DNA from: Zymoseptoria tritici IPO323 | Lineage: Eukaryota; Ascomycota; Dothideomycetes; Mycosphaerellales; Mycosphaerellaceae | Reading direction: 5' to 3' | Assembly (NCBI RefSeq): GCF_000219625.1 | Contig: NC_018214.1 | Location: 1,922,001 to 1,986,000 of the forward strand | DNA length: 64,000 nt | In this document: piece by piece, positions 53,075 to 55,697 of the stretch | Layout: every line of letters begins with the position of its first letter | Position numbering within the stretch: the first letter of the stretch is position 1 | The notes under the pieces: generated by a model | Seen by the model: the letters and a program-made list of their open reading frames with translations, nothing else | The model's database searches: none | What the model was told of the DNA's origin: nothing | Translations under genes and position numbers: made by a program

Positions 53075-53493
53075 GATGATGAAGGGCCGGCATGGAGTCC
53101 AGGCGAGATGTGGCAGGCAACGGAGGACGTTGATAAATGTATGTTTAGGCCATCCAATATCGTAGGCCGCAGCAATTCAACCGATACCCCTTTGCCCAGC
53201 TCATGGATCTCAGCCTCAGAGGCACGCGTCCTTGATTAGTTCTATCCCGAGGAGCTCGTGCTCAACTAAGGCCACTGAATTCGGCAGCCCGTGAGGCTAC
53301 TAGGGTTCAAAACTAGAATGTCGTTGTGAGTCACGAAGATAACTACCTTAGAGATGCAAATGCGGTGACTTTGGGGTCGCTCCTTCCTCTGATACGCGGT
53401 GCAGGTTGTTAGCGCCGCCAGAGAAAATACGATATATATACGTTTACGTCTCGAAGGTGATAATATTCAGGGCAACCAATCAGGTCCCTTAGC
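53075..53493. other. Region between GT32 gene and tRNA
   Basis: Upstream region of both the GT32 gene (minus) and the tRNA (plus). An AT-rich GATATATATACG at about 53430-53441, some 55-65 nt before the tRNA 5' end, could serve as a TATA-like element for either polymerase. No coding sequence was recognised. Confidence 0.45.
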
Positions 53494-53502
53494 GCCGGGG
53501 TA

Positions 53503-53557
53503 GTGAGTAGCTTCTGCAACTTCACTGGTTGAGATGTCCTCAACTAACAACCTCCAG
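53503..53557 (+). other. 55-nt spliceosomal-type intron between tRNA positions 9 and 10
   Basis: It begins GTGAGT, has a CTAAC branch-type site 12 nt before the end and finishes CCTCCAG, all in line with the fungal mRNA introns in this window. Its removal restores the acceptor stem junction and the A-box order T8-A9-G10. It splits the Pol III A box. Confidence 0.65.
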
Positions 53558-53624
53558 GCTCAATCGGTAGAGCGTGTGGCTCTTATGGCTTCGGTCAACT
53601 GCAACCTCAAGGTCGTGGGTTCGA

Positions 53625-53678
53625 GTGAGTTTCTCTCTTGTGCCTCCAATTCCAGGTCAGTATCTGACTAAAGATTAG
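53625..53678 (+). other. 54-nt spliceosomal-type intron between tRNA positions 58 and 59
   Basis: It begins GTGAGT, contains CTGAC (53669-53673 region) and ends GATTAG. Its removal joins TTCGA to GCCCCAC and restores a perfect T arm. It cuts the Pol III B box after GGTTCGA. Confidence 0.65.
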
Positions 53679-53693
53679 GCCCCACCTTCGGCT

Positions 53694-54315
53694 ATTCCTA
53701 TACAGTCCATCCCGCTGGGATGAGACACTCTCGAAGACCTTTCTTTTTCCCTTTTGCCTCGTGGTTTTGAGAATTTCCTTTTTAGGAAGTTGTGAAGTTT
53801 TTGGGAAGGAGCGGACATTTTTGGGCGGCGGTGAGGTTGCGAGCGGGCGTTAGTGCCCGACTACGAGTCGGCAACAGTACATGACTTTGTGCGAGCGGAA
53901 AATCTTGCAATATACAGATTTTGCATGGAGACTTCCTCAAGCCTATGCAAGGAGCTGAACGGACAACTATGACCAAAGACTGCTTCAATCCATTCCTTGC
54001 CAGATTGATTTTGCCATCATTTCCTGTCGTATACCGAAGAGGGAGCCTGTTTTGCGAAACGAGACGATCTCCCGTACATTACACTTTCACGCCGACCGTC
54101 TCCTAAACGACTTTGACAAGCTTGGTGTGGAGCGAACATACACAATATGAAAGAGAGCAATCTGCGTATTTAGAGGGCCTTGGATGCACAAACGATTCGA
54201 GTGGTTTCGTCAAAGATCACCTTGCTATGTTGAGCTTTCAAAGTGTGCCCTTCGCATCTTGTCAAAACATTCCCGGTTTCGACAAATCCACACAGCTCCG
54301 TCAGCCGTTACCAAG
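53694..54315. other. Intergenic region after the tRNA
   Basis: A TTTCTTTTT run at about 53749-53757 may end Pol III transcription. The rest holds the promoter of the next gene; no coding frame with motifs was recognised. Confidence 0.4.
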
Positions 54316-55697
54316 ATGGCCGACGAGGTCACACTTGGTGAAGGCGACTTCACGAAATCGCAGAATTGGCCGCAGATCGTCTATGGCAATCCAGACAAGG
54401 CGAGTGACACATGCAGCGCAAGTTGTTGAGGATGAAGTGACTGACGCTCTTCTTTTGCAGTGTGACATTCTCGACGCCCAAAACCAGGTCATGGCCAAGC
54501 ACATGATCGGGGAAGCTGCGAAGAACAAGGACTTCCGCGAGGAGGTGATGAAGATGTTCAAGAAGCAGCACAACCTCCTCTCCCAGGTCGCCACCGCCCT
54601 CGATATCGACGGAGCCGACATCAACGCCTCCAAGCCGACCAAGCAGACTCCAGCAGCCGACAAGGACGATGAAGTTGTCAAAGCCCTCAGCGAGGAATTG
54701 CAGGAGGAGGTGAAGGTCCTCACAATCGATTACTCCGACAGCGGCAATCGCAACAAGGTCAAGTCAAAGGAGACCAAGACTGTGAGAGATGGAACGTTGG
54801 TCCAAGATTGGGTCGCGCACATCGAGAAGAAGATGCAGAATCGATACCATGCAGAGTGGCAGACTTTGACGGTGGCCCAGAAGAAGCGCTTCTTCTTCAA
54901 GATGGTACTCATGTTGATCGCTGAGGAGAAGGAGGCGAAAGTCAGCGACAAAGCCAAGGAGACAGCAGAGGTAAGTCATTCTCCTTCGTCCATTCATCAT
55001 GTATGATCGCTGACATTGTGAGGCTCAGGGCAGCAAGCGCAAAGTCACGCAGGCATCGATTGGTGGCAGCGTGCAGGGTCGCCGTGGCCGTGATTCGATG
55101 GATCTGGACACGCCGACTACTGTTCGTGGTGGCAGCATCGGGAGAGGCGGAGGCGGTACCAAGTCCTCCAAGTCACGCAACAACACACCCTCCATCGGTA
55201 TTGATACTCTCTTGCCGCGTCAACTGTCCGCCGACTTTCGCGAAGCCGTCAACACCCGGATTGCCACCAAGGCTCAGGAGAGCGAGCTCAAGGTGATGAA
55301 GCGCGAGCAGAAGAGCCATGGCGATGACCAGGACGCCGCGGAGGAGAAGGAGGACGATGAGGAGGAAGAGGAGGAGGGCGAGGACGAGGTGAGGATGAGG
55401 AGGACTCAGGCCCTCCCTTTCAGAACTAGAACATCGTCTAGAGTCCGCCGTCGCTCATCGAATGTGGCGCATCGGGACAACGTTGCGGCAAATGATAAGA
55501 CAGGACGAGAAACCCAACAAGGATGCATCGCTCCGTGGCATACGATCAATGTAAAGGAAAAGGGTCTCCTTCGACATCTCCCCGCCGAGTGTCGAGGACC
55601 ATCAGAATGTTCTCTGCTTCCCAGTGATTCGGTCGTGACCATGTCGTTGACGTGGACAGGTCTGGGATGTAACTTGAGGTGGCCTTCGGAAACATGA
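54316..55697 (+). CDS. Unknown protein with helical core and acidic C-terminus
   Basis: Three exons, 54316-54399, 54461-54970 and 55029-55697, giving about 420 residues. The first intron uses a GC donor (GCGAGT) with a CTGAC branch site and TTTGCAG acceptor. Residues 29-150 are helical and polar (CDILDAQNQVMAKHMIGEAA). Residues about 165-215 (VQDWVAHIEKKMQNRYHAEW, then KKRFFFKMVLMLI) look like a folded helical unit. A Gly/Arg/Ser-rich stretch (about 220-260) precedes a highly acidic run near 300-315. After that the frame turns basic and Ser/Arg-rich, which may mean the true end or an extra intron lies near 55390. No known domain is recognised. The N-terminal two thirds are credible; the last 100 residues are doubtful. 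Confidence 0.6.

Follow-up and report, generated by a model that had tools for sequence, protein, structure and literature searches.

The window analysed here, 64,000 nt of the genome of Zymoseptoria tritici IPO323, carries on its forward strand a tRNA-Lys(CUU) gene at 53494..53693, with four exons that join to 73 nt and include U73. The earlier note had described a cloverleaf that emerges once inserts of 55 and 54 nt are removed and 73 nt are left; coordinates and sequence agree with that description, and ARAGORN reads the joined exons as tRNA-Lys(ctt) with a score of 111.4 (with the threshold reduced to 90% and with CCA and short flanks appended).

Exon 1 (53494..53502) supplies tRNA positions 1-9, that is, the 5' strand of the acceptor stem, U8 and A9, and is followed by a spliceosomal-type intron at 9/10 (53503..53557; 55 nt) of the form GTGAGT...CTAAC...CAG, which ends in CTAACAACCTCCAG and has its branch A 10 nt ahead of the 3' splice site. 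Exon 2 (53558..53585) covers positions 10-37 with the D arm and the anticodon CUU and leads into an ordinary tRNA intron (53586..53603; 18 nt, non-GT-AG), for which the earlier note had named the normal tRNA intron site; it does lie there, at 37/38, and is distinct from the GT-AG inserts. Exon 3 (53604..53624; positions 38-58) is separated from exon 4 (53679..53693; positions 59-73) by a second spliceosomal-type intron at 58/59 (53625..53678), which is 54 nt long, has the form GTGAGT...CTGAC...TAG, ends in CTGACTAAAGATTAG and places its branch A 11 nt from its end.

All flanking elements lie on the same strand. A TATA-like element, TATATATA, stands at 53433..53440, some 60 nt upstream of the gene, and a CCAATCA element that may mark the start site at 53476..53482. 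Downstream, the sequence can be read as a 3' trailer hairpin, CATCCC-GCT-GGGATG (53708..53722), and a T5 run at 53744..53748, 50 nt past the tRNA 3' end, is a likely Pol III terminator. The Lys copy on contig 3 (L064, described below) has a trailer hairpin CAACCC-GCT-GGGTTG, a paired change relative to the window gene, and then a T5 run at the same distance of 50 nt; in the contig 8 copy this distance is 43 nt.

In the joined product all seven acceptor-stem pairs form. The unspliced gene received no ARAGORN call at the default threshold, and in the whole window no tRNA was found by ARAGORN run without introns or by Rfam at gathering scores. When only the two GT-AG inserts were cut and the 18-nt intron was kept, ARAGORN returned a tRNA of score 105.0, labelled 'Stop (tta)'. 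The minimum-energy structure that RNAfold gives for the joined exons is not a cloverleaf, and the anticodon stem holds a U-U mismatch at 29:41, passed over in the earlier note, that is common to all three Lys copies located. Near-matches to the internal boxes, AGGCTCAATCGG and GGTTCGAGTGA, can be read in the sequence of the window gene.

Genome-wide searches used the IPO323 assembly of 39,686,251 bases in 21 contigs, the first of them 6,088,797 bases long. Since this genome was described as finished on publication (PMC3111534, in whose accessible main text the word 'tRNA' has 0 occurrences), an assembly fault is an unlikely cause of the interruptions.

Two further tRNA-Lys(CUU) genes

The earlier note had proposed counting the tRNA-Lys(CUU) genes, and a joined-exon search together with a pattern search located two more, on contigs 8 and 3, both interrupted at 9/10 by a GT-AG intron (55 and 52 nt, respectively). 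The contig 3 copy also has an intron at 58/59 (53 nt), which the contig 8 copy does not, and the 37/38 intron of these paralogues is 38 nt long. The exons are the same at 73 of 73 bases in all three copies. With one mismatch allowed, the pattern search gave exact matches at these three genes only, and its 30 other matches compare with 41 in the reversed control. Because two further loci share the same 73 exon bases and the insert at 9/10, one of them that at 58/59 as well, and 14 other genes are built in the same way, the pattern of inserts in the window gene goes beyond chance.

The bodies of the introns, taken without their splice signals, behave quite differently from these exons. Four pairs of Lys introns were 44-65% alike, as compared with shuffled means of 47-50%, and none exceeded the shuffled maximum. 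Identical exons are found in two other families, Ile (two genes, 74 nt) and Asp (three genes, 73 nt as cut there), and over the nine same-site pairs from all three families the bodies were again 44-65% alike and within the shuffled range (means 46-50%). Seven of the nine pairs were above their own shuffled mean, one of them equalling the shuffled maximum, so that a trace of common origin remains between same-site introns of paralogues. Given identical exons and intron bodies that resemble shuffled sequence, selection seems to maintain exons and splice signals but hardly anything that lies between them.

These comparisons bear directly on the proposal that the locus is a dead tRNA gene into which two intron-like sequences were inserted, a reading that could draw on the invisibility of the unspliced form to ARAGORN and Rfam and on the anticodon-stem mismatch. 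Three copies with fully identical exons and otherwise divergent introns, and the same situation in Ile and Asp, argue against it, as does the lack of any uninterrupted Lys(CUU) gene in the joined-exon and pattern searches, which sample candidates and can miss genes. We regard a dead gene as extremely improbable. The earlier note's interpretation is supported as regards the presence of spliceosomal-looking introns in a nuclear tRNA gene, and is not supported as regards a gene 'hit twice', if this is taken to mean a dead gene.

Other interrupted tRNA genes

Including the three Lys genes, we located 27 such introns in 17 interrupted tRNA genes, the other 14 being genes for Ile, Asp, Gln, Ser, Val, Tyr, Glu and Arg; the numbering of their sites is our own. 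Both Ile(AAU) genes have an intron at 11/12 and the one on contig 4 another at 69/70, while all three Asp(GUC) genes are interrupted at 30/31 and two of them also at 59/60. The single Gln(CUG) and Tyr(GUA) genes each have an intron in the D loop. The two Val(AAC) genes have introns at 9/10 and in the D loop, where the ends are GC-AG, and Arg(UCU) has introns at 8/9 and 68/69. In Glu(UUC), introns in the variable loop and at 64/65 leave an internal exon of 19 nt, and the two Glu(CUC) genes are interrupted in the D loop and at 48/49 or 50/51. Ser(AGA) has introns after the variable arm and at 70/71; its acceptor stem seemed broken until removal of the second GT-AG intron restored seven of seven pairs.

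Fifteen of the 17 genes also have an ordinary 37/38 intron, of 13-38 nt as cut; some ends of these introns were shifted by hand by a few nt for the final ARAGORN test. In that test all 17 joined products were called as tRNAs, with scores of 110-122; the anticodon was clean in 13 and was not for the Ser gene and the three Glu genes, for which the hand-set 37/38 ends were used. Unspliced, 13 of the 17 genes drew no call from ARAGORN, and the other four were called with introns of 76-120 nt. Within the Glu(CUC) pair the D-loop introns are offset by one base and the T-stem introns by two, and these offsets, together with the differences in intron presence among paralogues, show that introns have been gained, have been lost or have slid since the genes were duplicated.

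Spliceosomal signatures of the introns

The 27 introns begin with GT in 26 cases and with GC in one and end in AG in all, their length is 48-58 nt in 26, and every one has a branch A 9-13 nt from its end, a feature shared by 11 of 158 random stretches of the window with GTNNGT..AG ends and a length of 48-58 nt; these counts are partly circular, because GT-AG ends and a branch site were presupposed in finding most of the other 14 genes, the exception being three sites defined by paralogues. The likeness of the window inserts to mRNA introns, to which the earlier note had pointed on account of their GTGAGT...AG form and CTAAC/CTGAC motifs, is borne out by eight mRNA introns of the window, which match in length, ends and branch site: these measure 50-61 nt and have a branch A 10-16 nt from the end in all eight, as read by eye, each join leaving one or more frames open. 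An mRNA-type intron with GC-AG ends, read by eye, lies in a neighbouring protein gene (54400-54460; 61 nt, GCGAGT...CTGAC...CAG).

At three sites the ends can be set free of any motif by comparison with a paralogue that lacks the insert, namely Lys 58/59 (contigs 5 and 3 against contig 8), Asp 59/60 (contigs 12 and 5 against contig 1) and Ile 69/70 (contig 4 against contig 1). Each of the five inserts so defined allows one or two slides, and GT-AG is among them every time; for the 58/59 intron of the window gene the alignment permits two, one of which is GT-AG. If sites are independent and bases equal, the chance of GT-AG at all three sites is about 2 in 10 million.

We also cut candidate loci by motif, using 36 of 106 distinct B-box sites, those with three further T-stem pairs. 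Cutting by GT-AG ends and the branch motif yielded tRNAs at 11 T-arm loci, in addition to the six that needed no cut, as against one and two low-scoring extras with two mock motifs. The totals were 18 for the real motif (6 uncut, 11 cut and one doubtful, at the second B box of locus L023) and 7 and 8 for the mocks, with unequal numbers of candidates (721, 597 and 390). At three loci (L082, L168, L170) the top-scoring cut differs from the reading adopted, for which we relied on paralogues or on how well the complete cloverleaf fits. A motif-free deletion scan with ARAGORN was not sharp, with no deletion scoring above the GT-AG cut for some introns and up to 260 for others, and the case therefore rests on the paralogues.

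Multiple ectopic introns of the bulge-helix-bulge kind occur in Cyanidioschyzon nuclear tRNAs and in archaea, according to the accessible text of PMC3978253, and a relaxed tRNA endonuclease acting on such motifs here, with the GT-AG ends incidental, would be a comparable explanation. Four central bulge-helix-bulge pairs are indeed possible in two of the three Lys 9/10 introns. However, none of 26 inserts had these four pairs together with both outer helices in what is a crude and weak test, one that all 15 of the 37/38 introns fail too. Moreover, such cleavage would leave the GT-AG or GC-AG ends and branch site of all 27 introns, and the introns of U6 described below, unexplained, and the yeast endonuclease is reported, in the part of PMC4033280 available, to be strict for 37/38. 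We judge endonuclease cleavage of the GT-AG inserts to be very unlikely.

Introner-like elements are present in Z. tritici. There are reports of such elements for fungi and studies of the spread of introns in Zymoseptoria, as far as the accessible sources go, so the inserts could be recent arrivals of this kind in a small number of tRNA genes, with functional copies that lack them at other loci. Against this, the 18 of the 27 introns that were searched matched only themselves at E 0.01 with very common words skipped, and thus give no sign of a recent introner burst; same-site introns of paralogues, being within the shuffled range, are likewise not recent. Insertions of this sort are in our view highly improbable as the explanation.

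Transcription signals

In 15 of the 17 interrupted genes a run of five or more T residues follows within 60 nt downstream (background in the window, 28 of 1065 pieces), and such a run is absent from the interior of all 17. The exceptions are the Ile gene on contig 1, which has T4 runs only, and Tyr, whose first T5 is at 66 nt. Among six uninterrupted tRNA genes (listed below) such runs start at 5-22 nt in four and at 36 nt in one, and Arg(CCU) has T4 and no T5 in 80 nt. Upstream, TATA-like elements, defined by a pattern picked after the sequences had been viewed, accompany 12 of the 17 interrupted genes and one of the six uninterrupted ones (300 shuffles: mean 1.2, maximum 6), and CCAATCA accompanies nine and none, respectively (300 shuffles: mean 0.27, maximum 3).

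The A box, the B box or both are interrupted by introns in several genes, and for this reason we do not claim that these are ordinary Pol III genes with internal promoters. The interrupted genes may have a different type of promoter, judging from these upstream motifs, in which the TATA may substitute for the split internal boxes; an upstream TATA box is described as important for tRNA transcription in some plants and fungi (PMC3978253, in its accessible part). TATA-like elements and T-runs together point to transcription by Pol III.

The earlier note had raised a Pol II transcript, and one can envisage the same introns being removed by the spliceosome from a capped Pol II precursor out of which the tRNA is cut later. 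Splicing by the spliceosome normally goes together with Pol II transcription and a cap, the internal boxes are split as just described, and CCAATCA is similar to a CCAAT box, all of which would suit such a precursor. On the other hand, T-runs close behind the genes and absent from within them are what one expects of Pol III terminators, they are found near five of the six uninterrupted genes as well (T4 in the sixth), and introns of the same build occur in this genome in U6, which Pol III transcribes in other organisms. Pol II is therefore less likely than Pol III as the source of the transcript, and we hold the capped precursor to be unlikely.

A U6 snRNA locus with similar introns

Spliceosomal introns are known from fungal U6 genes. 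By eye we recognised a U6 snRNA locus on the reverse strand of contig 8 (1401275-1401477; L193), using the U6 motifs. Here ACAGAGA is followed by a GT-AG intron of 51 nt and AGATTAGCATGGC by one of 50 nt, each with its branch A 11 nt from the end; an internal exon of 13 nt separates the two, and a long T-run stands behind. The U6 family search placed two partial, weak matches (23.3 and 18.2 bits; cut-off 44) next to each other on contig 8 and found none above the Rfam cut-off in the genome; weak matches to this family also occurred in 10 of 14 control genomes. Two other places from the search, at 25.7 and 23.9 bits, were set aside as not U6-like in appearance.

Uninterrupted genes and the question of other sources

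Six of the 23 tRNA genes located have no GT-AG intron: Arg(CCG), Arg(CCU), Ser(UGA), Ser(CGA), Leu(CAG) and Pro(CGG), where Arg(CCU) and Ser(UGA) are our own readings of genes that ARAGORN labels Trp and undetermined. The set is a sample, drawn from most of the first 100 of 325 B-box places (193 in the control), which were fetched, from one GC-rich T-arm pattern run genome-wide (26 places, 10 in the control) and from the paralogue search, and several T arms in it resisted decoding.

A search with the joined exons at E 0.01 gave 21 matches, touching 12 of the 17 interrupted genes as well as Ser(CGA), an Asp fragment (L182) and a Tyr-like 3' half (L169). It found no uninterrupted copy for any of the ten anticodons, and it also missed both other Lys copies. 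An A box starting with TAGC and followed by a B box 27-57 nt on has one match in the genome, Arg(CCG), which shows, for this one form of A box, that few such tRNAs are uncut. The pattern GGTTCRAGTRNGT occurs at 22 places as against 23 in the reversed control; two are Lys genes, and none of the eight that were read among the other 20 had a tRNA identity. Beyond the genome, the Lys pattern matched 11 viral contigs, every one with an uninterrupted tRNA-Lys-like sequence, and intron-joined patterns gave no match elsewhere, with the Lys pattern run against genome contigs and the Ile pattern against viral contigs.

Matches of the Rfam tRNA family were rejected as an inventory: ARAGORN reads 32 of the 40 fetched, from 58, as Cys(aca) and four as Tyr(ata). 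A tRNA-derived repeat family (L013-L051, one family by its look) dominates these matches in the genome.

Other loci are of interest in their own right. L182 (contig 7:1230110-1230144) corresponds to the 5' part of tRNA-Asp and lacks the 30/31 intron, running on past that site with the CTTG of the joined exons; it might derive from a spliced RNA by copying, be a relic from before the intron or reflect a four-base coincidence. L157 and L089 (contig 1:4796400 and 4796889) are T arms whose 5' halves seemingly lie past long tandem-like arrays of short units, GGCTTGTCCTG... and ACAGTCTTG.... L075, L088, L164/L150 and L169 are T arms with tRNA-like 3' halves and 5' parts that resisted decoding; GCTAACAATTCACAG stands upstream of L075, and L169 has its 3' half in common with tRNA-Tyr.

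A probable spliceosome-dependent tRNA supply

Taking the sequence evidence together, we put at roughly 88% the probability that the window holds a working nuclear tRNA-Lys(CUU) gene, with a Pol III precursor from which the spliceosome removes the 9/10 and 58/59 introns and the endonuclease that at 37/38. A short precursor, most likely made by Pol III, would extend from the TATA-like and CCAATCA elements to the T5 run at 53744-53748, as the motifs suggest. The major spliceosome would excise the two GT-AG introns, to judge from their ends, branch site, length, presence or absence among paralogues and conservation. The restored cloverleaf would be processed at its ends, and the 18-nt intron cut by the tRNA splicing endonuclease with ligase in the established pathway.

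The Lys gene appears to be one of at least 17 so built, and the supply of tRNA for at least ten anticodons is probably spliceosome-dependent. In the 18 ORFs of at least 300 aa in the window, lysine is encoded by AAG 393 times versus 149 for AAA. We further consider it likely that most of the tRNA genes located (17 of 23), together with U6, are Pol III genes with an obligatory passage through the spliceosome, and that at least ten anticodons, including the main-codon Lys(CUU), have no other source; translation would then depend directly on the splicing of transcripts only a few hundred nt in length, and U6 would need U6. It would be unusual for an uncapped Pol III transcript to be spliced around an internal exon as short as the 19 nt of Glu(UUC).

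If this is true, the tRNA-intron and spliceosome systems are joined in one genome, Pol III transcripts might serve generally as spliceosome substrates, and the misses of tRNA finders in Z. tritici are explained. The genes would offer a direct test of splicing uncoupled from Pol II and of very short internal exons, and paralogues that differ in introns at known sites would be a place to study intron gain and loss.

Comparison with known systems

We know of no case of spliceosomal introns in tRNA, and among the matches listed from the open-access literature (titles and the starts of abstracts, with preprints and most subscription papers outside) there was no report of them in tRNA genes. In the accessible parts of PMC13149111, PMC4033280, PMC3978253 and PMC8450103, tRNA introns are removed by endonuclease, some at bulge-helix-bulge motifs, or are self-splicing group I introns in bacteria and plastids, and a 2026 review has them handled by the tRNA endonuclease, separately from the spliceosome (PMC13149111, accessible part). 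Only 44 tRNA genes were counted by tRNAscan-SE in Peltaster fructicola, which is called a close relative of Z. tritici in the part of PMC7181583 available; our guess would be an undercount of the same kind.

Fungal introner-like elements are likewise spliceosomal introns that have spread in related fungi, but the multi-copy matches typical of them are absent for the 18 tRNA introns tested. The mRNA introns of the window resemble the tRNA inserts in length, GT/GC-AG ends, CTRAC branch site and its distance, and the differences lie in the tRNA host and in an internal exon of just 19 nt. Canonical 37/38 tRNA introns differ from the GT-AG inserts in position, ends, length and presumed enzyme. The ectopic introns of archaea and Cyanidioschyzon merolae share with them sites away from 37/38, and upstream TATA-like elements are discussed there as well (PMC3978253, in part), but those introns have bulge-helix-bulge motifs and are cut by endonuclease, whereas the Z. 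tritici inserts have GT-AG ends and a branch site. Fungal U6 introns likewise combine GT-AG ends and a branch site in a short noncoding gene of Pol III type with a T-run behind, although U6 is a component of the spliceosome and not a tRNA.
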